A program made the position numbers and the translations under genes. Source: Terriglobia bacterium (GTDB lineage: Bacteria; Acidobacteriota; Terriglobia; Acidiferrales; UBA7541). Taken from it: a stretch of 33,943 bases of DNA. Positions 10,543 to 31,232 of this stretch are shown piece after piece (the stretch's first letter is position 1; every line of letters starts with the position of its first letter). Below the pieces are notes generated by a model. It did no database searches. It had not been told where the DNA came from and was given only the letters and a program-made list of their open reading frames with translations. The DNA lies in the NCBI GenBank assembly GCA_020072765.1, contig JAIQGD010000019.1, forward strand, positions 1-33,943, written 5' to 3'.

Positions 10543-10547
10543 GGCGG

Positions 10548-12864: not shown

Positions 12865-12877
12865 GTTCCCTTTATGC

Positions 12878-12908
12878 GTGATTATTCATCACTTTGCATA
12901 ATCATACA
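12878..12908. promoter_or_regulatory. two candidate ARG boxes (ArgR operators)
   Basis: Box 1 (12878-12892) is GTGAT-N5-ATCAC, a 15-bp palindrome with an AT-rich centre that contains TGAATAA on the minus strand. Box 2 (12896-12908), minus-strand GTATGATTATGCA, overlaps the -10 element. Both resemble the known ArgR half-site pattern TGAAT/ATTCA. Tandem boxes over the -10 and start point are the usual arrangement for repression. The match is by eye only. Confidence 0.6.
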
Positions 12909-12928
12909 ACAGCCCCGGCGGGTGTCAA
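12894..12928 (-). promoter_or_regulatory. sigma-70 type promoter of the arginine operon
   Basis: Reading the minus strand, TTGACA (12928-12923) is followed after 16 bp by TATGAT (12906-12901), close to the sigma-70 consensus. Transcription would start near 12894, giving a leader of about 30 nt before the argR ATG. No other promoter is obvious within the overlapping operon. Confidence 0.75.
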
Positions 12929-13199
12929 GAACTTCTCGCAACAATTATGCTTCCCCGCGCACGGCGGCGCGCGCGAGCAGTCCGCGCCACGGTCGCGTGC
13001 CGGGATGAAACAGATGCTGCGCAACGGGACACGCGCCCATCGCTCTTCCTCCCCATCCACGCACCGCGCCGCTGTAACGCACACAGCAGACGCGTCTTGC
13101 CGCAGGGAACATTTCGCGGGCGAGAGGCGCATTGGCGCGCCGCTTGCAGGAATCTCCGCGGGCATGGCGCGCAACACAATCAGCGGGTGTGCCAGCACG

Positions 13200-14477
13200 A
13201 TGACCGCGAGGCGGCGATGCTACCGGATCGCGGGCCCACTGCTGGCAGCTTTTCTGATCGCCGCCGGGATTGCTGCGCCGTGCCGAGCGCGACAGACCGC
13301 CCGCGACTGGCAAGCCGAGGTGCGCAACGCCGCCGCCGCGCACGACTGGGCCGGCGCGCTGCGCATTGTCGATGGCGAAATCGCGCGCGCGCCGAAAGAC
13401 ATGGACATCCGCGCCTGGCGGGCACGGGTTCTGCTATGGGCCGGCCGGCTGACGGAAGCGGAGCGGGAATTCGCCGCCCTGGTGCAGGCCGTCCCGAACG
13501 ATCCGGACGACTGGATGGGCCTGGGGACCGTGTACCTGCAGCAGCGTCGCCTGCCGGACGCGCTCCGCGCCATGGACCGCGCCGTCGCTCTCGATCCGAA
13601 GCGCTCGGACCTGCGCGCCGCCCGCGCGCGCGTCCTGGTGGCCATGGGCGAGCCGCGCCAGGCGCGCCTGGAATTTCAGCAAGTGTTGAGACAGGACCCC
13701 GCGAATGTGGCGGCGCGCGACGAACTCGCCTCGCTCCGCAACGACACCAAGCACCAACTCCGCTTCGGCGCCGAAAACGACCTGTTCAACTTCACCGGTG
13801 CGAACCACAGCCAGTGGCTGAGCCTGATCTCCCGATGGTCTCCCCGCTGGACGACGTCCGCGGCGGGAAATTTCTACCAGATCGCGGGCGTCGGCGCGGG
13901 AAAATTCACGGGCGGCGTCACGCGGACGGCGGCGCGCTGGGGTTCGCTCACCATCGGCGGCGCGGTGGCGCGCGATAACGCGGTGGTGCCGCGCGCCGAG
14001 GCCTTCTTCGCGGCCGACCGGGGCTGGGCCGTCAGCCAGGACAATGTCCTGCGCGGCATCGAACTCACCTACGGCCAGCACTGGTATTGGTACGCCACGG
14101 CCCGCATCCTGACGTTCGACGAGACCGCTTTCGTCTATCTCCCGCGCGAATGGTCCTGGTCGATTCGGCTCACGCAGGCCCGCAGCCAGTTCCCCGCCAC
14201 GCCCGCGGACTGGAAACCTTCGGGGATGACCCGCCTGGCCTTTCCCCTCACGCACGCGGGCGCGCGGCGCCTGTTGGGAAACATCTTCTTCGCGGCCGGC
14301 ACCGAGGACTTCGCGCAGATCAGCCAGATCGGAAGTTTCGCCTCGCAAACCTATGGCGGCGGATTCCGGTTCCAGCTCAACGCGCGCCACGATATCACCG
14401 GCTACGCCAGCTACCAGAGGCGCACACGGAATCGCACGGACACCAACTTTGGAGTCACCTATGGGATCCGCTTTTGA
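13200..14477 (+). CDS. YaiO-like outer-membrane beta-barrel protein with N-terminal TPR repeats
   Basis: This 425-aa protein has a signal peptide at 1-30 (RRR start, hydrophobic core, ending APCRA). TPR-like helices occupy about 35-155 (e.g. AEREFAALVQAVPNDPDDW and DALRAMDRAVALDPK). About 270 residues of alternating beta-strands follow and end GVTYGIRF. A terminal phenylalanine is typical of outer-membrane barrels. The arrangement matches the YaiO family of outer-membrane proteins. The start is uncertain: ATG at 13164 adds 12 residues and has AGGA at long spacing, while 13200 gives a cleaner signal peptide. The stop overlaps the next gene by 17 bp. With a HEAT protein and a glycosyltransferase downstream, a role in glycan export or outer-membrane assembly is inferred, by analogy with PgaA-type TPR barrels. 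Confidence 0.82.
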   Translation: MTARRRCYRIAGPLLAAFLIAAGIAAPCRARQTARDWQAEVRNAAAAHDWAGALRIVDGEIARAPKDMDIRAWRARVLLWAGRLTEAEREFAALVQAVPNDPDDWMGLGTVYLQQRRLPDALRAMDRAVALDPKRSDLRAARARVLVAMGEPRQARLEFQQVLRQDPANVAARDELASLRNDTKHQLRFGAENDLFNFTGANHSQWLSLISRWSPRWTTSAAGNFYQIAGVGAGKFTGGVTRTAARWGSLTIGGAVARDNAVVPRAEAFFAADRGWAVSQDNVLRGIELTYGQHWYWYATARILTFDETAFVYLPREWSWSIRLTQARSQFPATPADWKPSGMTRLAFPLTHAGARRLLGNIFFAAGTEDFAQISQIGSFASQTYGGGFRFQLNARHDITGYASYQRRTRNRTDTNFGVTYGIRF

Positions 14478-15681
14478 GAAATTGTTGACGCTGGGCCCGG
14501 CGGCCATTGTCCTGGAGGTCATCCTGGTCGCGGCGGCCGCCGACGGCCTCTTGCTGGGTTTCATCCTCCTCCGCAGGGCCTACCGCAAGCGCTACTTCGC
14601 CAAACGCGACCGCCGCGTCTACGAGTTCCGGCAAGAGTGGGACGCCCTGATCTCCGGCGAGGTGCCGTACGACACCTGGCGGACGCGCGCCTTTGACCGC
14701 CGCATTGTCGAAGAAATCGCGCTGGACGCGCTGGAAGCCGCCAAACCGAACGACTCGGCCCGCCTGCTCGCCTTCCTGCGCGCCACCGGACTGATCGAGA
14801 AACGCATCTTCGAGGCCCGGAAGCATCGCGGGTGGCGACGCCAGCGCGCGCTGGTGGCCCTGGGCCGCACACGCGCTCCCGAGGGAATTCCCGTCCTGGC
14901 CGAGGCGCTGCGCGATCCCAATCCGGAAACGCGGAACGCCGCGCTGCGCGGCCTGGGACGCATGGCCTCACCCGAGGCCGGAAACGAAATTCTCCTCTGG
15001 CTCGGCGAGGCCGGCCTGCAAGTCTCTCCCCTGCCGCTGCAAAACGCCTTGATCAACTGCTGCCGCGAGCGTCCCCAGATGCTGCTGCCCTATCTGCGGT
15101 ACGCGGGCCGGCCGGTGCGCGAGGTGCTGGCCCGCGTCTTCGGGGAAATCGCGACGGGAGCTCTGGAAGAGGAATTGATGGCGCTGGCCAGCGACGAACT
15201 CCCGGAATTGCGGGCGGCCGCGGCGCGCGCCCTGGGCCAGGCGGGGCAACACACCCCGGTGATGGAAACGCTGTCCGAACTGGCGCGCGACGCGGTTTGG
15301 TACGTGCGCCTGCGTGCCGTGGTGGCGCTGGGAAGAATTCCCCAGCCGGAAGTCATCCCTCCGCTTCTGCACGCGCTGCGGGATCCCAACCGCCTGGTGC
15401 GCATGCGCGCCGCCGAGGGATTGGCGGATCAACGCGGGGAAATGGCTTCCGTCTTCGCGGAGGTCGTGGCGGCCCAGGATCCCTACGCGCTGTACGCCTA
15501 TCTGGCGGCGATCGAAAACGCCGGCCTGCGGCAAACGCTCGCAGCCGACTTGCAGCAGCGTGAATCCCGCGGCGGCTTCGACGCCGGACCGTTATTGGCC
15601 GTGCTCCGCGCCGGCAAGCTGGCCGCGAAAGCGTCGGCCACGCCTCCGGCGAATACTCCCGCCCCGGTGAGCCCATCATGA
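14461..15681 (+). CDS. membrane-anchored HEAT-repeat protein
   Basis: This 406-aa protein has one N-terminal transmembrane helix (about 10-37, AAIVLEVILVAAAADGLLLG...) followed by a basic RRAYRKRY stop-transfer segment. The rest consists of HEAT/PBS-lyase-type helical pairs such as ALVALGRTRAPEGIPVLAEA and RAVVALGRIPQPEVIPPLL, mostly after residue 110. The C-terminus is alanine/proline rich. HEAT solenoids are protein-interaction scaffolds, and the domain probably faces the cytoplasm beside the glycosyltransferase. ATG at 14461 lies inside the YaiO-like gene, and its own TGA overlaps the next ATG (ATGA), so the three products are probably made together. No enzyme motif is visible. Confidence 0.85.
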   Translation: MGSAFEKLLTLGPAAIVLEVILVAAAADGLLLGFILLRRAYRKRYFAKRDRRVYEFRQEWDALISGEVPYDTWRTRAFDRRIVEEIALDALEAAKPNDSARLLAFLRATGLIEKRIFEARKHRGWRRQRALVALGRTRAPEGIPVLAEALRDPNPETRNAALRGLGRMASPEAGNEILLWLGEAGLQVSPLPLQNALINCCRERPQMLLPYLRYAGRPVREVLARVFGEIATGALEEELMALASDELPELRAAAARALGQAGQHTPVMETLSELARDAVWYVRLRAVVALGRIPQPEVIPPLLHALRDPNRLVRMRAAEGLADQRGEMASVFAEVVAAQDPYALYAYLAAIENAGLRQTLAADLQQRESRGGFDAGPLLAVLRAGKLAAKASATPPANTPAPVSPS

Positions 15682-17090
15682 TCCGGCTTCTGGATTGGGC
15701 CAACCACGGATTCTTTGTCTACTACCTCGTCTGCAATCTGATCTATCTGATGCTGCTCCTGATCGCGCTGAAGACCACGGCTCTGCATCAACTCAAGCTC
15801 CGGTCGCTGCGCTTGGCGTGGTTCCGGGAATCGCCGCTGGTGCCTCCCATCACCCTGCTGATGCCCGCGCACAACGAGGAACAGTCCATCTGCATGGCCG
15901 TCCGCAACGTTCTGGACCTGGATTTTCCGGAGTTGGAGGTGATTATCATCAACGATGGGTCGCAGGACCGCACGCTGAAAGAATTGGAAGGCGCGTTCCG
16001 GCTGCGCCGCGTGCACGCCGTGTACGTCGCGCAGGTGCCCAGCGCCCCCGTGCGGGGGCTGTACCGCAGCGACGCCGACGCGCGGCTGGTGGTGGTCGAT
16101 AAGGAGCCCGGCGGGAGCAAGGCCGATGCGGTCAACGCCGGGTTGAATGCAGCCACGTCTCCCTACGTCTGCGTGGTGGATGCCGACTCGATCCTGGAGC
16201 GCGACTCGTTGCTGCGGATCATGGTGCCGGTCCTCGCCGATCCCGAACGCGTGGTGGCGGTGGGCGGCATTGTGCGCGTCATCAACGGCTCGGACATCGC
16301 CGGCGGGCGCCTGCAACGCGTGCGCCTGCCGCGCAAAAGCCTGGAAGTGATTCAGGTGGTCGAATACCTGCGCGCCTTCCTGATGGGCCGGGAGGCCTGG
16401 GCGCAACTCAACATGCTGATGATTATCTCCGGGGCGTTTGGTCTGTTCCGCACCGATCTGGTCCGCGCCGTGGGCGGCTACCGGCCCGCGGCGATTGGCG
16501 AGGACTTCGATCTGGTCGTGCGCCTCCACCGTCATCTGCTGGAGCACAGTGCGCGGTACCGAATTTCGTTTGTGCCCGATCCCGTCTGCTGGACCGAAGT
16601 GCCCGCGGACCTTCGCTCACTCGGGAGGCAGCGCGCGCGGTGGCACAAGGGCCTGCTGGACGTGCTGCGGCGGAATGGCGATATGCTTTTCCGCCCTCGC
16701 TACGGCCGCATCGGATGGCTCGCGCTTCCCTACCTGTGGGTGTTCGAGTTTTTCGCCCCGGTCATCGAACTGGGCGGCATCGCGACAATCATCCTCGCGG
16801 CCTGTCTCGGCGCTCTCAGCCACCGCTTCTTCGTCGAGTTCCTGATCTTCGGCTACGTCTTCGCCACGGTGATTTCCATCGGCTGCGTCCTGCAGGAGGA
16901 GATCACCTACCGGCGCTACAACGACTGGAAAGACGTGCTGCGCCTGGTGACCTACTGCTTCCTCGAGCATTTCCCCTACCGGCAGCTCCACATGATTTGG
17001 CGGCTGCAAGGGGCCTGGCAGTACCTGCGCGGCGACGTCGCCTGGCGGCCCATGAAACGCCAGGGCCTGGAATCCCCCCACACGCGCTGA
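15678..17090 (+). CDS. processive family-2 glycosyltransferase, membrane-bound
   Basis: This 470-aa protein has an N-terminal transmembrane helix (about 11-32) and a GT-A catalytic domain. Visible motifs are PAHNEE near 63-68, NDGS at 92-95, DAD at 168-170 (metal/UDP binding), GED at 274-276 and QRARW at 318-322. That is the D,D,D,QxxRW signature of processive synthases such as PgaC, cellulose or hyaluronan synthase. Three or so hydrophobic segments after residue 345 form the membrane portion. It probably polymerises a UDP-sugar into an exported glycan; the sugar cannot be inferred. Coupling to the HEAT and YaiO-like genes suggests one synthesis/export machine. Confidence 0.9.
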   Translation: MIRLLDWANHGFFVYYLVCNLIYLMLLLIALKTTALHQLKLRSLRLAWFRESPLVPPITLLMPAHNEEQSICMAVRNVLDLDFPELEVIIINDGSQDRTLKELEGAFRLRRVHAVYVAQVPSAPVRGLYRSDADARLVVVDKEPGGSKADAVNAGLNAATSPYVCVVDADSILERDSLLRIMVPVLADPERVVAVGGIVRVINGSDIAGGRLQRVRLPRKSLEVIQVVEYLRAFLMGREAWAQLNMLMIISGAFGLFRTDLVRAVGGYRPAAIGEDFDLVVRLHRHLLEHSARYRISFVPDPVCWTEVPADLRSLGRQRARWHKGLLDVLRRNGDMLFRPRYGRIGWLALPYLWVFEFFAPVIELGGIATIILAACLGALSHRFFVEFLIFGYVFATVISIGCVLQEEITYRRYNDWKDVLRLVTYCFLEHFPYRQLHMIWRLQGAWQYLRGDVAWRPMKRQGLESPHTR

Positions 17091-17422: not shown

Positions 17423-17499
17423 AGGCCCGTAGCTCAGTTGGCTAGAGCGCCACCTTGACACGGTGGAGGTCTGCGGTTCGAGCCCGCACGGGCCTACCA
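17423..17499 (+). tRNA. tRNA-Val (anticodon GAC)
   Basis: This 77-nt cloverleaf has an acceptor stem AGGCCCG/CGGGCCT, D-arm GCTC-AGTTGGCTA-GAGC, anticodon stem CCACC/GGTGG with loop TTGACAC (anticodon GAC, reading GTC/GTT valine codons), T-arm TGCGG-TTCGAGC-CCGCA, discriminator A and encoded CCA at 17497-17499. All stems are perfectly paired. Its 3' part is duplicated twice downstream, which marks it as an integration target. Confidence 0.96.
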
Positions 17500-17544
17500 T
17501 TTGTTTGCACTGCTGGGGCATCGAGCGGGCCGACCGGGTCGGCC

Positions 17545-17579
17545 AGGTCTGCGGTTCGAGCCCGCACGGGCCTACCATT
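17545..17579 (+). repeat. exact 35-bp copy of the tRNA-Val 3' end (att-like, copy 2)
   Basis: It is identical to 17467-17501, covering the variable region, T-arm, 3' acceptor strand, CCA and two further bases. It is immediately preceded by a hairpin GGCCGAC-CGG-GTCGGCC (17528-17544) instead of an anticodon arm, so it cannot be a functional tRNA. Confidence 0.93.
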
Positions 17580-17626
17580 CTTTTGAATGACTTAGGCCAC
17601 AGTCGTGACTCGCCGCTTCAATTCTT

Positions 17627-17650
17627 ACCTGTGATTTCCTACCTGTGATT
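17627..17650 (+). repeat. paired direct repeat, ACCTGTGATT twice at 14-bp period (copy a)
   Basis: ACCTGTGATT occurs at 17627-17636 and 17641-17650. The same pair at the same period recurs at 22144-22167 and, with one changed base per unit, at 23871-23894. It lies about 50 bp after the tRNA-end copy 2. The arrangement resembles arm-type binding sites next to a recombinase core site. Confidence 0.85.
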
Positions 17651-17679
17651 GGGTATTTCCTACTTTTCCTGCGAACCGC

Positions 17680-19512
17680 TTACTTCTCGAGCAGCCCAGC
17701 AATCGCCTGCCAGTCGAGCTGCCGGATCAGTTTACTGACCGCCACGCAGTTTCCGGGATCTTCGCGCAAATGCTTTTGCTCCGCCAAGGACTGCGTGGAG
17801 TTGAGGATGTCATCCACATAAATGATTTGTAGCGCCGAACGCGGCAGCTTCGGATTCAGCAGCTTCGGATTGCGCTCCACCACTCTCCGGCAGCCGGCCG
17901 TGCCCGGCCGCTGTATTTTCCAGCCCTCGATCGAGTCATGCGGCGGGGCATCGGCCAGCACGCAAGCCGGCGCGTCGAGGACGCTCCGGTCGCCCGAGTC
18001 CAGCATCGCCTGCGCCTCTTTGTAAGTCTGCGCGTCGGCCTGCCGCCGCGCCAGCTCCTTCGGATCGTTCGTGCCGAATTGCAGCTCCTCGCGCGCACCC
18101 TCTTCCCATGCGCGGTGCATGGCCTCCAGGTGCCGCGCCTCGTATTCCGCGCCGGAGCCCCCCTTGGCCCGCACCGCGGTTTCCTCCTTGCGCCGCTTGG
18201 CCATCTCCTCGGGGCGTAAGTAATCCTCATTCCTTTTTTTGGCTTCCACGTCGGACTTCTGGGAAGATTCCACCCGGCTCTTATACGTTGGCAGCAGGTA
18301 TTTCAACAGCCGCTCCATCGTGATCGGAACCCACAGCTCGTCCCCCGGGCGCGCGATCACCAGCATCGCCCTCCCCTCCCCGTAGACCGGAAGGCCCCCA
18401 ATCTCGCCGATTTTCCTCGGCTCGATGAAGAACTGGCCTCGGGCATCTTCGTAACGGACACCCACTATGGGGGGGATGTTCACATGAAACCGCAGCCCGC
18501 AATTCACTTCGCCTTCGGTGAGATAGCGCGTCTGGATCTCCCCCGTGGCCTTCAGCCGCACCCGCCTCTCGAAATATCCCGGAAAGCTGAAAAACGTGTC
18601 CGCTCGCAGCGGCAGCCCTTCCGCCAGATACTTCTTCAAATCCGCAGTGGCCTCGAACGAATACCGCGAGGAGCTAGAATAGACGTCGAATCCCCTCGGC
18701 GGATTCAGCAGCGCCGCTTTCTTCACCACCTCGTTAATGCGCTGCAAATTGGCCATGAGCGCTTTACTCTCCGTTGGCGTGGTCTGCAGCTCGCGGGCGA
18801 CAGAAGGGTTGGTGGTCTGAAGCCACGGCAGGAATTTTCCGTCATGATCCGGCACGAAGCCTTCGTCCTTCTCCCCAGGAGGGTGCGGTAAGGGAGGGAG
18901 CGGCTCAGGGACCAACTCACCCGTGTTCACAGCCTTGGCCTCCCGTGCCTTGCCGGTGGCGGCAATTTTCGCCTCCAGCGCCGCGGTGTCCGTCGTCAGC
19001 TTGTTGTTGTAGGCGAGCCGCCGCGCCCGCTCGTAGGCTTTGACCGCTTCCAGGTACTCCCCGACGGCCGCGAGGCCATCTCCATACTTGACCGTTTGCT
19101 CATAGTCCTTCATTGGAGCGAGCGCTGCTTTATCCGGTGCGGACGCTGGAGCCACCGCACTCTTCGCCGGTTCCGCTTCACTCTGCGTGGGCGCAGCCGC
19201 TGGAGCGGGAGCATTCTTTTTCTCATCCCGCACCTTTCGCGCCGCCGCCAGCTTCTTGTCCAGCGCCGCCTTATCGATATCGAGCTTATTGTTGTAGGCC
19301 ACCCGCCCGGCCCGCTCGTACTGCAAGACCGCTTCAAACGCGTTCCCCGCGGTCATCAAATCGTCCGCGCGGCGGACGGTCTCGTCATAGTCTTTCTTCG
19401 CCGCGTCCGTGGATGATTGACAGAAGGCTGCTGGCGAAAGGATGACCACGGCGGGTCCCGTGCCGATTCCCAGCAGCATGATCAAGCCAAGCAATTTCCC
19501 GCGCTTGCTCAT
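17680..19512 (-). CDS. secreted protein with an internal tandem duplication, family not recognised
   Basis: This 610-aa protein has ATG at 19512 after GAGGA, and a signal peptide over about 1-32 ending AAFCQS. Residues 41-97 and 136-192 are two aligned copies of one helical unit (DYDETVRRADDLM... and DYEQTVKYGDGLA...). Each contains a YERA-R-AYNNKL core, 95 residues apart, joined by an Ala/Pro/Glu linker. They look like TPR-type pairs. A probable beta-rich middle domain (about 325-450) and a charged, helical C-terminal half follow. No catalytic motif is visible. The gene is divergent from the other secreted TPR-type gene at 19794, and both sit inside the tRNA-end repeats. A partner role for the two proteins is inference. 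Confidence 0.8.
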   Translation of the reverse strand: MSKRGKLLGLIMLLGIGTGPAVVILSPAAFCQSSTDAAKKDYDETVRRADDLMTAGNAFEAVLQYERAGRVAYNNKLDIDKAALDKKLAAARKVRDEKKNAPAPAAAPTQSEAEPAKSAVAPASAPDKAALAPMKDYEQTVKYGDGLAAVGEYLEAVKAYERARRLAYNNKLTTDTAALEAKIAATGKAREAKAVNTGELVPEPLPPLPHPPGEKDEGFVPDHDGKFLPWLQTTNPSVARELQTTPTESKALMANLQRINEVVKKAALLNPPRGFDVYSSSSRYSFEATADLKKYLAEGLPLRADTFFSFPGYFERRVRLKATGEIQTRYLTEGEVNCGLRFHVNIPPIVGVRYEDARGQFFIEPRKIGEIGGLPVYGEGRAMLVIARPGDELWVPITMERLLKYLLPTYKSRVESSQKSDVEAKKRNEDYLRPEEMAKRRKEETAVRAKGGSGAEYEARHLEAMHRAWEEGAREELQFGTNDPKELARRQADAQTYKEAQAMLDSGDRSVLDAPACVLADAPPHDSIEGWKIQRPGTAGCRRVVERNPKLLNPKLPRSALQIIYVDDILNSTQSLAEQKHLREDPGNCVAVSKLIRQLDWQAIAGLLEK

Positions 19513-19596
19513 TGCTCGTCCTCCTCTTTTGCGGAGGGAAACCCTTCTTTGCCAGCGTTTCCAGCGAAGTGCTTCGCTCGGCATTCCGTTCGTTCC

Positions 19597-19625
19597 TATA
19601 TATGCCAACCCGCCGGCGTCTGCAA
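19597..19625 (-). promoter_or_regulatory. candidate sigma-70 promoter for the 610-aa secreted protein
   Basis: On the minus strand TTGCAG (19625-19620) and TATATA (19602-19597) are separated by 17 bp. Transcription would start about 80 nt upstream of the ATG at 19512. Confidence 0.5.
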
Positions 19626-19630
19626 GTCGA

Positions 19631-19661
19631 TTGACATTTTCGCCCTACGCTGTGCTAAGGT
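19631..19661 (+). promoter_or_regulatory. candidate divergent promoter for the 750-aa secreted protein
   Basis: TTGACA at 19631-19636 is perfect. The best -10 is TAAGGT at 19656-19661, with a TG just upstream but a long 19-bp spacer. It lies back to back with the minus-strand promoter, only 5 bp away, so the two genes may be co-regulated. Confidence 0.4.
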
Positions 19662-19793
19662 GGCCCTGCTTGGCTGGCCTATGGCTCGTTCAGGCTCATC
19701 GGGTCCTTACTACCCGCTTCGCTTCTGCGACCCAACGAAGAAACCCCGCCAAGTTCAAGCACCGGCTCGCCACTCTGTTTAGGAGGATCCGCC

Positions 19794-22046
19794 GTGACCC
19801 TGCCCCGCGCCAGCTCCGCTTCCACAGCCGCGTGCAGCGCGCGAACTTTCCTGCTGCTCATCGCGCTTTTGATGCCGTCGTTTTCTCTCGCCCAGGATTA
19901 CCCCGCTCCGAACCCACAGAGCGCCATGCAAAACTCCATCGCCACTTTGGAAGAGCGCATCGCGACTTTGGAAAGCCAAATTGCTGACGCCGAAAGCCAG
20001 AACCAAACTGCCAGGGCTCAACTGTTGCAGCAGCAGGTAGCCATGTATAAGAAGGCGCTGGCGACGATGCAAGAAAAACTGAAGGCCATGCCCAGCGCTT
20101 CACCCGGGAACTCGCAGGCCGCTGCCGCTTCGGCCGGGCCGTCTCCTCGGCTCCCCAAAAGAGACGCCGCCAAGATTGCCACGCTGCACACAGCAATTCT
20201 CTCCGACTCGGAATTGCGCGCCTTTCTCGTGAAGACGCAGGAGATGGTCGACCGGCGCATCGCCGCCAAAAAACGCGCTCTGGCCGAGCAGCTTTTCAAG
20301 TCGCTGAAATCCAAACCGGCTTCCCCGGCGGAACTTTCCGCCGCCGCCAATGGCCTGTGGTCCGCCGGCCAGTCCGCCGTGGCTCTCTGGCTGATGGGCA
20401 AAGCGACGATCGAAAATCCCGGTCCCGACAACCTGAATAATTACGCCGCCTTTCTCGTCATGGCCGGTGCCCCGGAATCCGCTCTGCCCATCCTCTGGAA
20501 GCTTGACCAGCAGTATCCCGACAACAGCACCGTCCTGAACAACATTGGCCAGGCCTGGTTTGACCTGGGCGATATGGACGAGGCTAAAAAATACCTGGAT
20601 AAGGCCGTGCGCCGCTTCCCCGGCCACCCCCAGGCCAACCGCTCCGAGGCCCTGATCGAGGAGTCTAAGGGAAACAAGCAGGCCGCCGTCACGTACCTTA
20701 AGAATTCCCTGAGCGAGACCTACAGCGATGACCGGGAGCAAGATCTCGAGCGCCTCGGCTCTTCGTTGGACCCGGACGAACTCAGGAAGAGCCTGGGCAT
20801 GCACAAGGATCCTCTCGGCCTGGAGAAATTTAATTACCCTCGCTGGCCCAAGAACACGGACCAATCCGATGAGGACGTGAAGAAATGGGATGACTTTCAC
20901 GACGCCATTTCCGCCGAGAATCGGACCCTGGATGGGATGATCAAATCACTGCAGGACAAATTGAAGAAAAAGCAGGAAGCGAATTCGCAGCCAGGGAATG
21001 GCGTTGGTCTTGTGTTCGGCGGCGGAACGGATGTCACCGAAAACATTTCAAATGACAGCGGCCCCTCGCAGGGCAGCGGAGAGGTGGACTTTCCGTCGCC
21101 CTATTTTAGGCGCGCGGTGCGGCTCCAAAACGACGCCTTCGAGCGCTATAAAGCGTTTCGAAGACATTTCGATGCGCAGGCCCCCGAAACGAGCCGAAGC
21201 CTGGACGCCCTGGAGAAATCGAGCAGTAGCGAGAGCGCCGCCGTGGGGTACAAATACGCCAATATGCCCGAACGCCCGGGGATGGATGAAGCGGAGTGCG
21301 GCGAGACGAAGGCCATCTACAACCCATATCTCCAAAACGCCAACACCATCCTGGAGGGCCGGGCAGTTGCTTACAGGGATGCTGGCCGCAGCCTTCGCGA
21401 TGACATCAGTTTTGCCCGGCAGTTTATCCTCGATCCCGACGCGTACCAATTGGATAAGCTTGAAAACAAAAAGGAGTTTTTGGGCGACTTGACCGCCGTT
21501 GCAAGTCCTATTTTCCGCACCGCCGGCGTGTGCAGCGAGGGGCCGGGAGAAGAGGGCGGCCTCAATCTGCCCGATTTCGACGACATCCACTGCCCCCCCG
21601 ACAAACATATCAAGCTGAATCTGCCCATGGTGCAATGGGAATTCACCTGCACGCAGGCCAGGCTGAAGTACGACATTGTTTATTTCAAGGGCAAGGAGTT
21701 CGAGGACCTGCGCACTGGAGCGACGAAGGGCAACGTGGATTTCATGTTGTCCGCTGGCATGGGCAAGGATGCCGAATTAGGACCGATCAAAGGCGAGTTC
21801 CGTGCCGGCGTCGGTCTGTCTATCGACTACGACAACGGCGGTGTCAGCGACGTGGCCCTGGTGGCTGTGGTCAAGGGAGAACTGGCGCCCAAATTGGATT
21901 TCGATCCCACGGAACTCCCCGGCCGCCATGGAGCTGCTTTCGGAGAGTTTCCATCTGTGGAAGCCGGGGTCGAAGCCAGGGCGGGATGGAACGCCGGTCC
22001 TTCCATTCACGGCCAGGGTTTGTTGGGCGGGGGAGAGGCGGAGTAG
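19794..22046 (+). CDS. secreted coiled-coil/TPR protein, family not recognised
   Basis: This 750-aa protein starts with GTG at 19794, seven bases after a perfect AGGAGG. The signal peptide is about 1-33 (LLLIALLMPSFSLAQ). A heptad-like coiled coil follows (about 44-102, IATLEERIATLESQIADAES). TPR-like repeats lie near 190-300 (VLNNIGQAWFDLGDMDEAKK). A charged, Lys/Asp-rich middle leads to a cysteine-containing segment (about 500-630). The last 120 residues are rich in short glycine-bounded strands (FRAGVGLSIDYDNGGVSDVAL), suggesting a beta-structured end domain. No catalytic motif is visible. Export to the periplasm or cell surface is expected. It shares an intergenic region with the divergent 610-aa gene. 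Confidence 0.8.
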   Translation: MTLPRASSASTAACSARTFLLLIALLMPSFSLAQDYPAPNPQSAMQNSIATLEERIATLESQIADAESQNQTARAQLLQQQVAMYKKALATMQEKLKAMPSASPGNSQAAAASAGPSPRLPKRDAAKIATLHTAILSDSELRAFLVKTQEMVDRRIAAKKRALAEQLFKSLKSKPASPAELSAAANGLWSAGQSAVALWLMGKATIENPGPDNLNNYAAFLVMAGAPESALPILWKLDQQYPDNSTVLNNIGQAWFDLGDMDEAKKYLDKAVRRFPGHPQANRSEALIEESKGNKQAAVTYLKNSLSETYSDDREQDLERLGSSLDPDELRKSLGMHKDPLGLEKFNYPRWPKNTDQSDEDVKKWDDFHDAISAENRTLDGMIKSLQDKLKKKQEANSQPGNGVGLVFGGGTDVTENISNDSGPSQGSGEVDFPSPYFRRAVRLQNDAFERYKAFRRHFDAQAPETSRSLDALEKSSSSESAAVGYKYANMPERPGMDEAECGETKAIYNPYLQNANTILEGRAVAYRDAGRSLRDDISFARQFILDPDAYQLDKLENKKEFLGDLTAVASPIFRTAGVCSEGPGEEGGLNLPDFDDIHCPPDKHIKLNLPMVQWEFTCTQARLKYDIVYFKGKEFEDLRTGATKGNVDFMLSAGMGKDAELGPIKGEFRAGVGLSIDYDNGGVSDVALVAVVKGELAPKLDFDPTELPGRHGAAFGEFPSVEAGVEARAGWNAGPSIHGQGLLGGGEAE

Positions 22047-22333
22047 TTCTTTGCCAGCCATGCGCCTTTTGCCATGAAATTGAGCTGAACGATCACCGCA
22101 CTGAGCCGCACCCCTTTGGTCGTGATTCGCCGCTCGTGTTTCTACCTGTGATTCCCTACCTGTGATTGCGTGTTTTTCGCTGCATCAGCGGGAATCGACG
22201 ACTCCGTTCTGGACGAGTTGCAGTGGTTGTCGCGGCGACATGCGGGTTCAGCGAACACGCTGCCAGCGGACCCCATACGAAAACGCGATCAGGAGAACAA
22301 CGCGAACCGCGTCATCGCAACTCCTCCGTAAAT
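22047..22333. other. gene-free gap carrying repeat copy b
   Basis: No gene is seen here. Downstream of 22105 the sequence GTCGTGATTCGCCGCT resembles the flank after tRNA-end copy 2 (GTCGTGACTCGCCGCT, near 17602-17617). The paired repeat follows it. So this may be a decayed junction whose tRNA-derived core has been lost. Confidence 0.5.
22144..22167 (+). repeat. paired direct repeat, ACCTGTGATT twice at 14-bp period (copy b)
   Basis: The units are 22144-22153 and 22158-22167, identical to copy a, and preceded by the same CGTGA(C/T)TCGCCGCT flank. This copy lies between the secreted TPR gene and the CapA-like gene. Confidence 0.85.
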
Positions 22334-23575
22334 CTAGTGCCCGCTTTTTACTTTGACCGTCGCCGTCTCGCCCTTGAGCTCTATCTCTGTCCCAAAGGGT
22401 TTTGAGGCGTCCGCCATCCGCTGCAGGATATCGCGCGCCTTTTGGCCTGTCGTCGGCGCCGGCAAGCCGCGCGTGTCGATGAACCGGTTATTCGCATAGA
22501 TGTGGTAAGGATCGGGCAAGCCCTCGCCCACGTAATTCATAGAGATCGGCTGCAACGTGATGGATTTGAGGTTACTCCCCTGAAATTCGACATAGGCCAC
22601 CACGCTTTCCCAAGTGATGGGTTCTTCGATCCTCCAGAGCCCGGGAGACACGTTGAAAATAAAATTGCCTAGATCGTAGAAAATCGGCTTCCCGTGATAG
22701 ATCTCCAGGCCGTGCAGCAGCGGCGCCCCGTGCATCACGATGATATCCGCGCCCGCATCTACCTCGCGGTGCGTCCATTTTTTCAGCCATTCACTCGGGG
22801 CCAGCCGCTCCGGCAACTCCTCCTCAAACATCGCCAGGAACGCCCTGTTCGAGAAGACGTGATTGTGCTGGTACACGATGACGACATCCGCGTGTTTCCG
22901 GGCATCTCTTATGCTCCGAAGAATTTGTTCGGCGTCCTCCTGGTTCGGCTCATTTTGCACTCCTGGCGGAAGGTCATCAAACGCCTCGTTCTTCTTGTCC
23001 CCCATTTGAATGCGCAACTCATTCACGCCGGGCCGGTCCACCGTCGCACTACCTCCCTCCTGGATCGCTCCCGACGCACTCGCCACCAGGGCCACCGTAC
23101 CCTTCGGCGTGTGCAAGTAACCCGGCGCCACGGCTTGATCTGCATTCCGTCCGATCCCCGCATGAACGATCTTCCGTTCCTCCACCTCACGAAGCGTGTT
23201 TTCAATGCCCGTCCGCTGGAAATCAAAAGAATGATTGTTGGAAAGAGACAGCAGATTGAATCCAAACGTCGCGAGCGCATCGAGCGTTTCCGGCGGCGAG
23301 AGAAATCCCTCGTCCTCCGGGGCCTTATCTCCTTTTTCGGCGATGGTGGCCTCGAAGTTGGTGAACTTCACGTCTCCTTTCATCAGCGATTGGACCGCCG
23401 GCACGGCCGCCGGCGCGGTTGCGCGGATATCTGAACGGATCATCGACTGCCCGGCCAAAGTGATCAGCATCGGCTGCGACTGCGGCCATAGAGTCGCTCC
23501 AGCAGCAAGCGCCATCGCGAGACAAATTATCGCAAGCACGTAGCGATTCGATTTCGAGGTTGCTGCCATGTGCAT
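22334..23575 (-). CDS. CapA/PgsA-family metallophosphatase-like secreted protein
   Basis: This 413-aa protein has a signal peptide or anchor at about 11-33. It resembles the CapA family, associated with poly-gamma-glutamate synthesis and with a calcineurin-like metallophosphoesterase fold. Supporting motifs are FTNFEATI (71-78, family NLE), LSNNHSFDF (111-119), ADIIVMHG (276-283) and HGKPIFYDLGNFIFN (294-308). Some usual metal ligands differ. The N-terminal GDv-f-R is AGQSMIR, and the usual GHHPH segment reads MHGAPLLHG, so catalytic competence is uncertain. ATG at 23575 follows GGGGG directly, while a second ATG at 23569 has better spacing. The pgsB/pgsC ligase genes are not in the window. 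Confidence 0.82.
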   Translation of the reverse strand: MHMAATSKSNRYVLAIICLAMALAAGATLWPQSQPMLITLAGQSMIRSDIRATAPAAVPAVQSLMKGDVKFTNFEATIAEKGDKAPEDEGFLSPPETLDALATFGFNLLSLSNNHSFDFQRTGIENTLREVEERKIVHAGIGRNADQAVAPGYLHTPKGTVALVASASGAIQEGGSATVDRPGVNELRIQMGDKKNEAFDDLPPGVQNEPNQEDAEQILRSIRDARKHADVVIVYQHNHVFSNRAFLAMFEEELPERLAPSEWLKKWTHREVDAGADIIVMHGAPLLHGLEIYHGKPIFYDLGNFIFNVSPGLWRIEEPITWESVVAYVEFQGSNLKSITLQPISMNYVGEGLPDPYHIYANNRFIDTRGLPAPTTGQKARDILQRMADASKPFGTEIELKGETATVKVKSGH

Positions 23576-23776
23576 CCCCCAGTTTTTGGCGACTGCCTGA
23601 GACTTCTTATCTCATCATTTCAGGGCTCGACGGAGTCTGCTGTTTGCGCGGCGATGCGTGCCGTAGCTTCGAATTGCGTCGCCAATCCTAACACGCCTGC
23701 GCATTCCACAAACTGTCCGCTCGCGGCCGAGCTCGTTCGGACAGCACACTTCGGCTCGGCCATGGGCGCACTTCCG

Positions 23777-23828
23777 TTGACACGGCGGAGGTCTGCGGTT
23801 CGAGCCCGCACGGGCCTGCCATTTGTTT
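23777..23828 (+). repeat. 52-bp near-exact copy of the tRNA-Val 3' half (att-like, copy 3)
   Basis: It aligns with 17455-17506 with two differences by eye: GGTGG becomes GGCGG, and CCTACCA becomes CCTGCCA. It runs from the anticodon loop through CCA and the ATTTGTTT that follows the tRNA. The 5' half of the tRNA is absent. Confidence 0.93.
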
Positions 23829-23870
23829 CAATGTCTTGCGCCACACGCATATTTCTCCGCGCGATTTCCT

Positions 23871-23894
23871 ACCTGTGTTTCCCTACCTGTGTTT
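23871..23894 (+). repeat. paired direct repeat, ACCTGTGTTT twice at 14-bp period (copy c)
   Basis: The units are 23871-23880 and 23885-23894, differing from copies a and b by one base each (A to T, changed in both units). It lies 42 bp past the end of tRNA-end copy 3, comparable to the spacing at copy a. Confidence 0.85.
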
Positions 23895-23963
23895 CGTTTT
23901 CTTGTTGGGCTAGGAGGGACTCCCGCGGCAGGCGCCGCATCGGCACACCGAACAGCAACGGAC

Positions 23964-26897
23964 TTAACGAAGTTGGCGGTCCGAAACCGTCGAGGACGAC
24001 AGTTCCAGGTTGCACTGGGCGAGGTGGCGCGAGACTTCAAGGGGAAGCGTCGTTTCGGCCCCGATGGTGTTAATGCGTGCAGGGTTGGAGATATTGTTCC
24101 ATGCATGGAGGCTTTTCTGGAACCACTCGCTCGCCTCCTGCAACTCGGACATTTTCTGTTTCCTTGTGCGACTGCTGTCAGCGAGTTGTTCGGCGAGCAT
24201 GCCTTCTCCGGTGTATGTTTCCGCCAAAGCATATAGAACATCTTGATCGTCCGGACTGGCATGGGAAAGGGGGCCGAGCAGCGCCAACGATTGCTCATAT
24301 TGTTGCCTGGCTCTTTCCGTTTGACCGAGCTTGAGAAGAGATCCCGCCAGACGCTCCGTGACGGAACAGAAATAGAACTGCGTCTCCAAGTCGTTCGAGC
24401 CGCCGGCGCGCACCGCACTCAGGAACTCCTGGCCCGTTGCATACTCGAGCGACGCCGCGCGAATCTTGCCTTGGTGCTCCAGCGCTTCGCCCATCCACAT
24501 ATGGAAGACACCCTGAAGAGTGCGCATGAGCGGCGTTTGTGATGGTTCGCCTGCAACTGCCCCGAGGGTTTTGCGCAGGTAGCGGATGCCTTCTTCCACT
24601 CGGCCCTCTTCCACCAAGGCCAGGCCGAGCTCCGCGCTACTTGTTATTTCCGCTCGGCGCAGAAATTCGTTTTTTGGATCCATGGCCTTCAGCCGCGCGG
24701 CCGCTTGCTGGGCCTTCGCGTAATAACGGACCGCTTCCGCGTTCTGGCCCTCCAACAAGTAGACGTCGCCGATCTTCGAAGTCAGGATCGTTGCGTTCGA
24801 GGCAAAGCGGATATTGTCTCCCTTGGGATTCAACGCATCCAAGATGTCGACGCCACTGCGGTAGTAGTTCAAGGCAGCAGCACGATTCCCTAGCTTGAAT
24901 ACGGCATCGCCCAGGACCCCATTTATTACAGCTCCTTGCGCTTGATAACTTAGATTGGCGGGAGCGAGCTGAACAGCACGCTGACGGAGAAGAAGGGCCT
25001 TCTGAAGGTCAGCCACGCCTCCGGATGCTGTGCCGATGCTCCCCATGGCGCCTTCGCCGACCTGCAGCATTCCCAGATTTACATGCCCGCGCATGGACTG
25101 CACAACGATCCGGACGTCGTCGGGGCTGGCAACGGCTTCCTGATCCAAGATGGCGAGCGCCTTTTTGCAGTAGTCAAATGCCGCCGCCACGTTGCCGGCG
25201 GCGGCTCTCTGAAAATCAGAGTAGTCCAGATAGGCGGCGGCCAGTTCCACCTGGTCTGCGCTGTTCCTCGGATTTAAGCGCGCCAACGACTCGCGCAACG
25301 CAAGCGATTTTTGAAAGCTGGCCAGTGCAGACTGTGTGTCGCCGAGATTGGGGTCCTGAGGATTTCCCTGAAGGGACCCAATGCGGCTGTACGCGGTGGC
25401 CAGCTCACGAAGCAGGCTGGGTTCGTTTCCCGATTCCGTAGAGAGGCTATCCAAATATTCCAAGGATCTCTGCAGGATGAGTTTCCGGGCCTGGGTAGCG
25501 CCCGGCAGGTTTGCAATCGAGTCGTGCACTTCAAAAATAAGAGAGTTGGCCAGCTTGCGCACATCGTTAAATCGGGCTTCCGCGCGCCGCCGGTTGGCCT
25601 CTGCGATGCGCGCTTCGCGCACGGTTACGGCGACGCCGGTGACCAGTGTGATCAGAACCAGCGCGGCTGCGGCGACACCCGCTTTGTGCCTCCTTACGAA
25701 CTTTGCGGCGCGATAGCTCCATGTCCCTTTTCTTGCGGAGACCGGAATCCCCTCCAGGTGGTTGCGCAGGTCTCCCGCGAAGTGTTCCACCGAGGCGTAA
25801 CGCAGCGCGGGTTCCTTCCGTAGCGCCTTCAACAGGACAAAGTCGAGGTCACCGCGAAGCCGGCGCTGTAACCGAAGGGGCGACACTTCTCGCGTACGGC
25901 TGACGGTTTCAGCCGTCAGCTCGCGCAACGCTCCGTCCTGCAGAACACTCTCGGTGCGCTCCACGGAAGTGCTGGGCCGCTCGGGCTCGTCGTGAGTGAT
26001 GGCTTCCGCTAGTTTCCCCGCGGTCCGCTTATCGACGCGGTAGGGAGAGCGGCCGGTGAGCAGTTGATACAGCACGACTCCGAGGGAATAGACATCGGTC
26101 GCGGTGGTGATCGGCTCGCCACGAATCTGCTCCGGGCTCGCATATTCGGGAGTCATGGGCCGGAGCACCGTGGCCTCGGTGGCGCCGGAAGCATCCAGGA
26201 GCTTGGCGATGCCGAAGTCCAGCAGCTTCGGCGTTCCCTCTTGCGTGACGAGAATGTTGCTGGGTTTTATATCCCGATGAATCACCAGATGCTGATGCGC
26301 ATATTGCACGGCCCCGCAGACCTGGCCGAACAACTGCACACGCTCGGTCACGGTCAGTTTCCGCGCGTCGCAATAGGCGTCGATGGGCTGCCCTTCCACC
26401 AGTTCCATCACGAGATAGGGGATGCCGTCGTCGGTCGTGCCGCCATCAAGCAGTCGGGCAATGTTCGGATGGTCCAGGCTGGCGAGAATCTGGCGCTCGT
26501 TGCGAAATCGTTCCAGGAGCAAGGCCGTGTCATAGCCGCTGCGGACCAATTTGAGAGCGACCTTCTTCTCATACGTTCCATCGGCGCGGAGGGCGGCGAA
26601 AACCTCGCCCATCCCCCCATGTCCGATTTCATCTCCGACCAGATAGGGGCCGATTCGGCGGCCTGCGCGGACATCGGCGCGCGGTGTGGTGTCCGCTGCT
26701 CGCTGGGCCACTGCGCCCGCGACGTTCAGGAATTGGCTGCCGGCTTCGTGGTGGGAGGCGATCAGAGACTCCACTTCGCGGCGCAGTTCGGAATCCCCGG
26801 CACAGGCCTCGTTCAGATACTGCTCGCGTTGCGTGGTGGCGAGCGAAAGCGCCTTTTCCAGGACTTCGCTGATCCGTTCCCATCGTTCCGGGGTCAC
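23964..26897 (-). CDS. transmembrane serine/threonine protein kinase with C-terminal TPR region
   Basis: This 977-aa protein has an N-terminal helical region (1-75), then a Hanks-type kinase domain. Its glycine loop is GHGGMGEV at 92-99, invariant lysine K116, catalytic HRDIKPSN at 207-214, DFG at 227-229, and SPE in place of APE at 254-256. All catalytic residues are present. A transmembrane helix lies at about 406-426. About 550 residues of TPR-like helices follow, probably outside the membrane. GTG at 26897 overlaps the sigma factor TGA (GTGA), so it is the preferred start, and the two genes are co-translated. Such kinases phosphorylate Ser/Thr targets; the overlapping sigma factor is the obvious candidate target or partner, but that is inference. 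Confidence 0.93.
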   Translation of the reverse strand: MTPERWERISEVLEKALSLATTQREQYLNEACAGDSELRREVESLIASHHEAGSQFLNVAGAVAQRAADTTPRADVRAGRRIGPYLVGDEIGHGGMGEVFAALRADGTYEKKVALKLVRSGYDTALLLERFRNERQILASLDHPNIARLLDGGTTDDGIPYLVMELVEGQPIDAYCDARKLTVTERVQLFGQVCGAVQYAHQHLVIHRDIKPSNILVTQEGTPKLLDFGIAKLLDASGATEATVLRPMTPEYASPEQIRGEPITTATDVYSLGVVLYQLLTGRSPYRVDKRTAGKLAEAITHDEPERPSTSVERTESVLQDGALRELTAETVSRTREVSPLRLQRRLRGDLDFVLLKALRKEPALRYASVEHFAGDLRNHLEGIPVSARKGTWSYRAAKFVRRHKAGVAAAALVLITLVTGVAVTVREARIAEANRRRAEARFNDVRKLANSLIFEVHDSIANLPGATQARKLILQRSLEYLDSLSTESGNEPSLLRELATAYSRIGSLQGNPQDPNLGDTQSALASFQKSLALRESLARLNPRNSADQVELAAAYLDYSDFQRAAAGNVAAAFDYCKKALAILDQEAVASPDDVRIVVQSMRGHVNLGMLQVGEGAMGSIGTASGGVADLQKALLLRQRAVQLAPANLSYQAQGAVINGVLGDAVFKLGNRAAALNYYRSGVDILDALNPKGDNIRFASNATILTSKIGDVYLLEGQNAEAVRYYAKAQQAAARLKAMDPKNEFLRRAEITSSAELGLALVEEGRVEEGIRYLRKTLGAVAGEPSQTPLMRTLQGVFHMWMGEALEHQGKIRAASLEYATGQEFLSAVRAGGSNDLETQFYFCSVTERLAGSLLKLGQTERARQQYEQSLALLGPLSHASPDDQDVLYALAETYTGEGMLAEQLADSSRTRKQKMSELQEASEWFQKSLHAWNNISNPARINTIGAETTLPLEVSRHLAQCNLELSSSTVSDRQLR

Positions 26898-27472
26898 GGC
26901 TGCTCGCTCCGGTTCATCTCGCGGAAGAGCCAGGCACGCGCCGTGGTCCAACTGCGCTTAACCGTGGCGGGGGAGACTCCCAGCACTTCCGACGTATCTT
27001 CAATCGAAAGGCCCGAAAAAAAACGGAGTTCGACAATTTCGCTCTGCTGTGGATTGAGTTGCGCCAGATTGTTCAACGCGCTATCCAGCGCCAGGATGTC
27101 CAGGTTCTTCCCCGGGGACCCGGCCACGGCTTCGTTCAGAGACAGCGTGAGCGAGTTGCCGCCACGTTTGGCGGCCCGGTTCGTTCGGGCGTGATCCACC
27201 AGGATCTGGCGCATGAGCCGCGCGGCCACTCCGAAAAAGTGGGCCCGGCTTTTCCATTCGGGAGGATTCTGACCTACCAGGCGCACGTAGGCTTCATGCA
27301 CCAGCGCCGTGCTTTGCAGGGTGTGATCGGGGCGTTCCTGGCGGAGGTAGTGCCGCGCCAGGCGGCGGAGTTCCTCGTAGACCAGCGGCATGAGGGCGTC
27401 CAGCGCTTCGCGGTCTCCCGCGCGCCACCGAACCAGGAGATCCGTGACCTGCCTGGGAGATCCGTTCTGCAC
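26894..27472 (-). CDS. ECF-type RNA polymerase sigma factor
   Basis: This 192-aa protein has sigma region 2 (about 8-80, including LVHEAYVRLV) and region 4 (about 130-190, LRFFSGLSIEDTSEVLGVSPATVK). It resembles the ECF group often found next to Ser/Thr kinases. No anti-sigma gene is adjacent. I chose GTG at 27472, six bases after GGAG, although the frame stays open to a TTG at 27538. A near-perfect promoter at 27510-27538 overlaps the upstream TTG and ATG codons, so transcripts would begin after them. The resulting length is normal for the family. Confidence 0.88.
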   Translation of the reverse strand: MQNGSPRQVTDLLVRWRAGDREALDALMPLVYEELRRLARHYLRQERPDHTLQSTALVHEAYVRLVGQNPPEWKSRAHFFGVAARLMRQILVDHARTNRAAKRGGNSLTLSLNEAVAGSPGKNLDILALDSALNNLAQLNPQQSEIVELRFFSGLSIEDTSEVLGVSPATVKRSWTTARAWLFREMNRSEQP

Positions 27473-27509
27473 GTGTGTCTCCGGCCGTGGGGAAGAGCGC
27501 TCGCGGCGC

Positions 27510-27538
27510 ATCATAGGGAATCGCCGACGGGTTGTCAA
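27510..27538 (-). promoter_or_regulatory. near-consensus sigma-70 promoter of the sigma factor-kinase operon
   Basis: On the minus strand TTGACA (27538-27533), 17 bp, TATGAT (27515-27510). Expected start of transcription is near 27503, with a leader of about 30 nt to the GTG at 27472. Confidence 0.75.
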
Positions 27539-27584
27539 TCCGCTTGAAACGCCGTGATTTAGGGCCGCCCGGACGGTTTCTTAG

Positions 27585-27660
27585 AGAATTGTACTGCTCG
27601 GTGAGCCAATCTCTCCCGTTTTTCCGCATATGTAGGGCAGAAAGGGTAGATAGGTAGTCC
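27585..27660 (+). repeat. degenerate copy of repeat R1 (R1c)
   Basis: It shares CTCGGTGAGCCAAT, TTTCCGCAT and AGGGCA in the same order and spacing as R1a and R1b, with many other differences. It lies between the sigma factor promoter and the gene at 27758. Confidence 0.65.
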
Positions 27661-27757
27661 GCAGGGGGCCACAGCCGGGTCTGATCTCGCTGGCGAAACC
27701 TTGGATCAGCTCTAGTGGCTGTCGATTGCGTTCCGCCCGTCACCGCAAGGAGTGACT

Positions 27758-29413
27758 ATGCCATCCCAATCATTGCGCTGTGTCTGCTTGTTCGCGGTCC
27801 TGTTTGCCGCCACGGGGGTCCAGGCCCAGGACCTGCACATCAAGAAAAACGTCTCCGTGGGAGGGAATTTCGTCTCCACCACGGAGACTTCCATCAAAGG
27901 CGCTCGCGAGCGCAGCGTGGATCAAGGACCCAACGGAAGCACCATCACCCTCAGGCAATGCGACCTCAAGCGCACCCTGACGGTGAACGAGCAGGCCCAG
28001 ACCTACCTGGCGTCCGACGATCCCCAGGACGAGAACGCCGTCAGGGCCGCGGCCCTGGCGACCGGTGCGCCGGCAGCAGAGGTCTCTGGAGGAAAGATCA
28101 CCGTGACCACCACGATCACCGACACCGGCGAGCGCAAGCCGATGTACGGCTATCAGGCGCGGCACCTGAAAGCCAAAGTCGTCCAGGAGCCTTCGGCGGA
28201 CGCCTGCACACAGGTCCGCCAGTCGTTTGACATCGATGGCTGGTTCGCCGACATCTCCAAAGAGCATGCGGCATGCTCGGTGTTAGCTCCTGCCGTTCAA
28301 CAGGGCACGGGCTGCCATGACACGGTGATCTCCCGCCGCAATGGCAGCGGCAAGGCGGGCTACCCGCTGCAGGAGAACATCAGCATGCCCACCCCAGACG
28401 GTGGTACGACGACGGTGACCATCCAGGTTTCGGAATTGACGAAACAGGAGCTCCCCGCCGATTTGTTCGACGTGCCGTCGGGGTACCGGCAGGTCAGCTC
28501 GCGTGCCGAACTCAACGGCGCATCCATGGCTCCACAACAGGCGGCAGGCACGCCCATGCAGCCGGGAGCGGCAGGCAACGGCCCAGGCCAGCAGTCAGCG
28601 GCTCAGCAGATAATGAACAACCCGAACCCCGGCGCGCGTTCCGCCGCCGGCCAGCAAGGGGCATGGCAGGCGGTCAATCAGTATGGAATCCCGCATGGCA
28701 ATGCGCCGATGAACGCACCCATGGGAGGGATGTCTCCGACGATGGGAATGCCCGGTATGGGTGGTCCACCGGCGGGCAGCACAGCGGTGGCCGCGCCTCA
28801 GGCGCTCGGGCCGAAGGCGCCGGGAAAAATCCGTATAGGTGTCGCATCCCCGGACGCGCAAGTGGGCCAGGGCAACAACGCGGGAGCGGACTACAGCACG
28901 CCCATCCGCAACGCCGTCGTCGCGTTGATGAGCGGACCAGCGATCGAGATCGCCGCCCTCGACTCGCGCATTGCGATCCAGGTGCAGGCCGAGGCCCAGC
29001 AAAAGCAGTGTGATTATGTTCTGTACTCCAGTGTGGCGCTGAAACACAGCTCGGGGGGAGGCTTCGGCAAGTTCATGAAGATGGCTGGACCCCTCGCCAG
29101 TGTGGCTCCCATGGCTGGCGGGATGGGCGGCGCCATGGGCGGAGCCGTGGCCGCTCAGGCTGCCGGGGCTGCGGCTTCGGCGGCCGCCATGTCGGCGCAG
29201 CAGCAGGCCATGAGCCAGCTCTCCGGCTTCAACGGCCAAATCAAGTCGAAGGACGACATCACCATGCAGTACCAGCTCGTCCCCACCGGGGGATCTTCGC
29301 CCCGGCTGCAGAACACTCTGAAAGCGAAGGCGAAGTCGGATGGCGAAGACGTACTGACGCCGCTGCTTCAGCAAGCAGCTACAAACGTCCTGACCGAAGT
29401 CACCAAGAAGTAG
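27758..29413 (+). CDS. secreted two-domain protein of unknown function with Gly/Met-rich linker
   Basis: This 551-aa protein starts with ATG at 27758, five bases after AAGGAG. The signal peptide is 1-23 (GVQA-QDL). The N-terminal domain (about 25-240) is beta-rich (DLHIKKNVSVGGNF, MYGYQARHLKAKV) and resembles lipoprotein-like periplasmic domains. A Gly/Met/Pro/Gln linker (about 250-345) follows. The C-terminal domain starts KIRIGVASPDAQVG and contains QKQCDYVLYSSVALKH, a Gly/Ala/Met-rich stretch and a final VLTEV. I recall similar C-terminal domains in other acidobacterial secreted proteins but cannot name the family. No catalytic motif is seen. A terminator hairpin follows at 29424. Confidence 0.82.
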   Translation: MPSQSLRCVCLFAVLFAATGVQAQDLHIKKNVSVGGNFVSTTETSIKGARERSVDQGPNGSTITLRQCDLKRTLTVNEQAQTYLASDDPQDENAVRAAALATGAPAAEVSGGKITVTTTITDTGERKPMYGYQARHLKAKVVQEPSADACTQVRQSFDIDGWFADISKEHAACSVLAPAVQQGTGCHDTVISRRNGSGKAGYPLQENISMPTPDGGTTTVTIQVSELTKQELPADLFDVPSGYRQVSSRAELNGASMAPQQAAGTPMQPGAAGNGPGQQSAAQQIMNNPNPGARSAAGQQGAWQAVNQYGIPHGNAPMNAPMGGMSPTMGMPGMGGPPAGSTAVAAPQALGPKAPGKIRIGVASPDAQVGQGNNAGADYSTPIRNAVVALMSGPAIEIAALDSRIAIQVQAEAQQKQCDYVLYSSVALKHSSGGGFGKFMKMAGPLASVAPMAGGMGGAMGGAVAAQAAGAAASAAAMSAQQQAMSQLSGFNGQIKSKDDITMQYQLVPTGGSSPRLQNTLKAKAKSDGEDVLTPLLQQAATNVLTEVTKK

Positions 29414-29423
29414 CAGCCAGTCT

Positions 29424-31231: not shown

Positions 31232-31232
31232 C

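Follow-up and report, generated by a model that had tools for sequence, protein, structure and literature searches.

A tRNA-Val(GAC) gene as the probable attachment site of tandemly inserted elements in an Acidobacteriota genome

Genes and features of the locus

The window (the whole stretch of DNA that was analysed, 33,943 nt) comprises positions 1-33,943 of the forward strand of contig JAIQGD010000019.1, from the Terriglobia bacterium assembly GCA_020072765.1 (GTDB lineage Bacteria; Acidobacteriota; Terriglobia; Acidiferrales; UBA7541). The contig is designated C40, a second contig carrying parts of the array C150, and the genome G000. Comparisons were made with 19 genomes of the genus, 88 other genomes of the family, 95 genomes of the order and all GTDB species contigs; labels beginning with L and G denote loci and genomes of relatives in these comparisons. 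The window genes at 1-12885 form a block that adjoins tRNA-Val in other members of the genus, and which was judged to be arginine biosynthesis from its N-acetyl-gamma-glutamyl-phosphate reductase homologue. The features beyond this block are as follows.

12894-17090, + strand: three ORFs (the first TPR, the last glycosyltransferase 2) that separate tRNA-Val from the arginine block
17423-17499, + strand: intact tRNA-Val(GAC) (ARAGORN), the putative integration target (attB/attL side)
17528-17544, + strand: perfect hairpin of 17 nt (GGCCGAC-CGG-GTCGGCC) within the 45 bp that separate copy 1 from copy 2
17545-17579, + strand: short core copy 2, which opens unit 1 and covers the 3' end of the tRNA from position ~45 onwards
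17625-17650, + strand: direct-repeat pair 1, TTACCTGTGATTTCCTACCTGTGATT, 47 bp after CCA; putative integrase arm-type sites
17680-19512, - strand: secreted protein without a family, 610 aa long, or 642 aa if read from an upstream TTG
19794-22046, + strand: secreted 750-aa TPR protein
22142-22168, + strand: direct-repeat pair 2, which opens unit 2 and has lost its core
22334-23575, - strand: CapA/PGA_cap-like protein (Pfam)
23777-23821, + strand: core copy 3, tRNA-Val positions 34-78 with two changes (alignment to the tRNA)
23869-23895, + strand: direct-repeat pair 3, CTACCTGTGTTTCCCTACCTGTGTTT, which opens unit 3, 47 bp after CCA
23964-26951, - strand: Ser/Thr protein kinase with TPR, its stop codon facing repeat pair 3
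26894-27538, - strand: ECF sigma factor, upstream of the kinase
27752-33943, + strand: array probably continuing as far as the contig end, with ORFs of 553, 518 and 669 aa
30897-31232, + strand: repeat that matches the first 336 bp of C150 (reverse strand) at 97% identity

The original prediction placed three copies of the tRNA-Val 3' end at this locus, and all were found exactly there. Positions 17467-17501 are repeated without change at 17545-17579, and 17455-17506 recurs at 23777-23828 with 96% identity (two changes); the chance level of such copies was 0 in 100 shuffles. Only the 3' portion of the tRNA had been said to be copied, and this also held, with copy 3 covering positions 34-78 and its copied part beginning at position 34 in the anticodon loop (TTGACAC...). 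The short copy 2 does not have the form of a normal attR. The 'tRNA-Gly' called by ARAGORN at 23729-23821 was rejected as an artefact of core copy 3. A hairpin and a shortened second T-arm similar to window positions 17500-17544 lie directly behind tRNA-Val in G057 (L191), which belongs to another genus.

Past the tRNA ends lies CTACCTGTGATTYCCTACCTGTG, a tandem direct repeat of two 9-bp repeats 14 bp apart. Four such pairs were found in the genome, all within the array, compared with 0 for the reversed control pattern. The fourth is on C150, where it too follows a tRNA-Val end at a distance of 47 bp; this contig has one further tRNA-Val end, which lacks a pair. Homology from unit to unit ends where the repeat pair ends. 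The initial listing of the locus, which took the interval from copy 2 to copy 3 as the unit, had missed the pairs behind these two copies, the pair at 22142, the probable extension of the array to the contig end and its other half on C150. In all, at least five cores and at least four pairs make up the array, which runs past the end of C40.

The 610-aa gene has its stop codon 30 bp after repeat pair 1. No full-length homologue of its product was found in the 88 other family genomes, where partial matches occurred in G029 (N-terminal, 50% identical) and, weakly, in G008; the 750-aa protein gave nothing beyond weak TPR matches in the 19 genus genomes. These two had been described as TPR-type secreted proteins, which was borne out for one with detectable TPR and not for the 642-aa ORF, which had no Pfam match. 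The CapA-like protein said to lie between copies 2 and 3 was confirmed as PGA_cap. Its homologues (60-66%) were found in five genus genomes, with fragments in a sixth, and no tRNA-Val core was present within roughly 1.5 kb of flank in the five genomes examined, so the CapA gene is not exclusive to the array. By inspection, the 610-aa, 750-aa and CapA proteins have signal-peptide-like or membrane-anchor-like N-termini. The cargo on C150 consists of an NHL/HYR-repeat protein, a PQQ/cytochrome c protein and a DUF5916 protein. The proposed envelope cargo is part of the load, which also includes the kinase and ECF sigma factor and the PQQ/cytochrome c and NHL/HYR proteins. No conjugation family was found among the Pfam matches of the main ORFs. 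PADLOC matches of the kinase to PD-T4-6 were set aside as generic kinase similarity.

The part of the array on C40 has a G+C content of 59-60% (60.5% at 23830-33943), versus 66.5% in the upstream chromosome. A further copy of the repeat at 30897-31232 (94%) occupies 33784-33943, the end of C40, and the repeats shared by the contig ends (94-97%) are consistent with C150 continuing C40. The genes past the last C150 core stand directly after a tRNA-Val core in G062, and in G075 the C150-side chromosomal genes and the arginine block are on opposite sides of tRNA-Val. From this synteny in G062 and G075, C40 and C150 are taken as two sides of one array, and C150 is best read as the far side of the tRNA-Val locus. 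The array is thus probably longer than 25 kb; counting all sequence as far as the contig ends, C40 would contribute about 16.4 kb and C150 about 11 kb. The repeats of about 150-340 bp (30897-31232, 33784-33943 and the C150 end) adjoin Ig-like/beta-propeller repeat ORFs.

tRNA-Val sites and integrases in relatives

A search of relatives for an empty site, as had been proposed, found one almost empty in G075, where 57 bp separate tRNA-Val from the arginine block; the tRNA is opposite in orientation relative to the flanks, so that the comparison is not base-precise. The direction of tRNA-Val with respect to the arginine block varies in the genus (L097, L098, L096, L099 and L100 versus the window, L114 and L106). 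Since it points towards the block in some members and away in others, tRNA-Val has been inverted relative to its flanks. In G082 (L124:6566-10639), homologues of the ORFs at 12894-17090 sit between two tRNA-Val cores and are followed by a different repeat pair.

Outside the window's genome, the pair was found among the 95 order genomes only in G006, G008, G025 and G037, at tRNA-Val loci. The scan of all GTDB species contigs recovered it on 8 contigs, all of Acidobacteriota; on seven of these it lies 22 or 47 bp past a tRNA-Val core, and the eighth, L028, has no core. The distance from CCA to the pair was 47 bp in 7 copies and 21-22 bp in 5. Because most loci of this class were found via the repeat itself, its conservation is not taken as evidence of selection. 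The repeat was not found in viral contigs, and phage and plasmid records gave no match to core plus repeat, only ordinary tRNA similarity.

Other cargo behind tRNA-Val, the second sign looked for in relatives, was also present, with cores starting at position 34. Fragments of the tRNA-Val 3' end aligning from 34 to 78 occur in many genomes across the family with a common start base. At other tRNA-Val ends of the family, at least six further classes of repeat pair occupy the corresponding position (TTTGTGTCGTTGTTTGTGTCG, TCCGTACCGCTCTCCGTACCG, GGCTCCAAATGGCTCCA, TTGCTCCAAATTGCTCCAA, CTTCACCTGTAATTCTTCACCTG and ACGCCCGATAACGCCCG). Perfect 9-bp pairs stood behind 24 of 81 tRNA-Val ends versus 1.3% of random windows; the window's class accounts for about half of the 24, mostly found by the repeat, which leaves the other half, not selected for it, as the unbiased excess. 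On these comparisons, tRNA-Val is an integration hot spot across the family.

At least 8 of 103 tRNA-Val ends (L098, L108, L119, L133, L140, L141, L173 and L189) have a GIY-YIG-type gene starting about 10-30 nt past the CCA of tRNA-Val or of a displaced core. The one in L119 follows a displaced core and may therefore itself travel with the core. Two displaced cores (L173:12022 and L143:7661, in G008 and G085) are closer to the tRNA of other species than to that of the host, possibly a trace of interspecies transfer.

The predicted lack of an integrase between copies 2 and 3 was confirmed, and none was found elsewhere in the window or in the C150 stretch (L013). The search proposed for an integrase beside the same core elsewhere in this genome found none: the five non-Xer tyrosine recombinases are all at other tRNAs (Lys, Ser, Pro, Ala and Thr), on C78, C95, C114, C118 and C62, each at a different tRNA gene. 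The use of tRNA genes as integration sites is general in this genome. An integrase could be hidden in the assembly gap between C40 and C150. Relatives do have integrases at tRNA-Val. In L105, L130 and L119, repeat pairs lie inside the 3' end of a tyrosine-integrase gene (Pfam PF00589) that converges on the tRNA, and in L106 and L117 they lie in integrase remnants; the integrases at tRNA-Val in L126, L117 and L106 are decaying. In the order-wide scan, the window's repeat class was confined to tRNA-Val loci without an integrase, and no integrase carried it. Viral contigs contained no close relative of one tRNA-Val integrase.

Origin of the array

Our main reading, to which we give a probability of about 0.78, is that tyrosine integrases use tRNA-Val(GAC) as an attachment site, and that several elements were inserted there one behind another (tandem accretion). 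An incoming element would join at the anticodon loop, at position 34 of tRNA-Val, and would supply a replacement 3' half that restores the tRNA, with the earlier 3' half being pushed to the far end of the element. Each unit would then consist of a tRNA 3' core (once lost, once shortened), about 47 bp, the repeat pair and passenger genes. The pair is probably an arm-type binding site of the integrase, because similarly placed pairs in other classes lie inside tyrosine-integrase 3' ends, where they match arm-type sites in position and form; with no integrase of the window's class found, this assignment is made by analogy with those classes.

The near-empty site, the differing cargo and the shared start at position 34 all support the attL/attR-type integration by a tyrosine recombinase that was proposed at the outset. 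Compared with a tRNA-integrated island, the array has the direct repeat of the tRNA 3' end at its borders and an empty or differently filled site in relatives (the tRNA orientation differing in G075), and neither the window nor L013 has its own integrase beside the att site. The units keep their cores and lack integration and transfer genes on the sequence seen, the gap between C40 and C150 lying outside it. To judge from the sequence, they are non-autonomous elements of the CIME kind that have been stacked by accretion.

As the units of the window carry no integrase, they would have been inserted by an integrase acting in trans or by that of an adjoining element acting in cis, or have lost their own integrase later. 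Mobilisation of this kind, and any mobility of the units today, are inferences. Whether the units are dead or are cassettes mobile in trans is about equally likely. Under the first alternative, held at somewhat less than even odds, full islands lost their integrase and mobility genes after insertion and the passengers became fixed behind the tRNA. The changes in core 3, the loss of the core before pair 2, the truncation of copy 2 and the integrase decay at tRNA-Val in L126, L117 and L106 agree with this. Against it, no integrase remnant was found in the sequence examined of roughly 15 units of the window's class from several genera, and in most of these a passenger gene ends near the repeat, where an integrase would be expected.

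The second alternative, a similarly tentative one, is that integrase-less cassettes still move in trans and use tRNA-Val as an integron-like landing site. A uniform minimal module (core, 47 or 22 bp, and pair) accompanies unrelated cargo in several genera, the unit in G037 is just 725 bp with a single gene, and a displaced core in G008 and another in G085 resemble the tRNA of other species more closely than the host's own; the matching integrase, however, was not found in the order-wide scan, and no excised circle was seen. A broader form, in which tRNA-Val(GAC) is an integron-like anchor throughout the family, with unrelated integrases sharing the site and integrase-less units of core, arm site and 1-3 genes being moved in trans, we consider rather doubtful.

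Segmental duplication through ordinary homologous recombination, without site-specific integration, would suit the short tandem copy 2 just 78 bp from copy 1, and is very improbable given that the copies start at one tRNA base in many genera and are then followed by integrase-type modules; the uniform start at position 34 was the reason for rejecting simple tandem duplication. Equally remote is a role of the tRNA fragments and repeats as regulatory or terminator elements of flanking convergent genes: most passenger genes behind the window's repeat class do converge on the repeat, but the spacing to the CCA end is fixed, repeat periods need not be multiples of three, and the repeats of other classes coincide with integrase 3' ends.

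Tandem accretion at tRNA-Val would explain how genes for the envelope, for signalling and for redox functions can be gained at a single fixed position in little-cultured Acidobacteriota. The core and repeat pair offer a sequence tag by which such units may be found in any genome, and integrase-less units with arm sites would allow a direct test of cassette-like exchange in trans by tyrosine integrases beyond classical integrons.

Comparison with known systems

The mechanism is known in kind, and the locus and the retention of an arm-site module in integrase-less units appear to be new; no paper on this tRNA-Val locus was found in the open-access literature searched. Prochlorococcus tycheposons are tRNA-targeted islands with cargo and tyrosine recombinases, like the tRNA-Val array, from which they differ in phylum. 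Integron arrays were used as a working analogy, since they share ordered growth at one anchor and a short recombination module per unit. The module at tRNA-Val appears to be a double-strand repeat pair, whereas that of the integron is the folded attC. The integron uses IntI, and among the tyrosine recombinases found here, which are Xer-like or tRNA-sited, none was identified as IntI.

The nearest precedents are the ssrA island array and the accretion model of ICEs and IMEs. In Dehalococcoides, many tandem islands lie behind one RNA gene with copies of its 3' end as borders, 15 ssrA islands lack an integration module and were suggested to be cis-mobilizable by accretion, and one relative has the att repeat inside its integrase gene (McMurdie et al. 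2011, PMC3146451). That system uses a serine integrase (DsiB) and a tmRNA target, whereas the tRNA-Val array involves tyrosine integrases, copies starting in the anticodon loop and a paired repeat kept in most units. In CIMEs and accretion of the ICESt1 type, attachment sites are kept, integration genes are absent and elements stand in tandem at one site, and unrelated integrases can share one target (PMC5704250). The CIMEs described there are mainly decayed ICEs or IMEs, whereas the main ORFs of the tRNA-Val units include no recognised conjugation gene, and several of the units hold only 1-3 genes.
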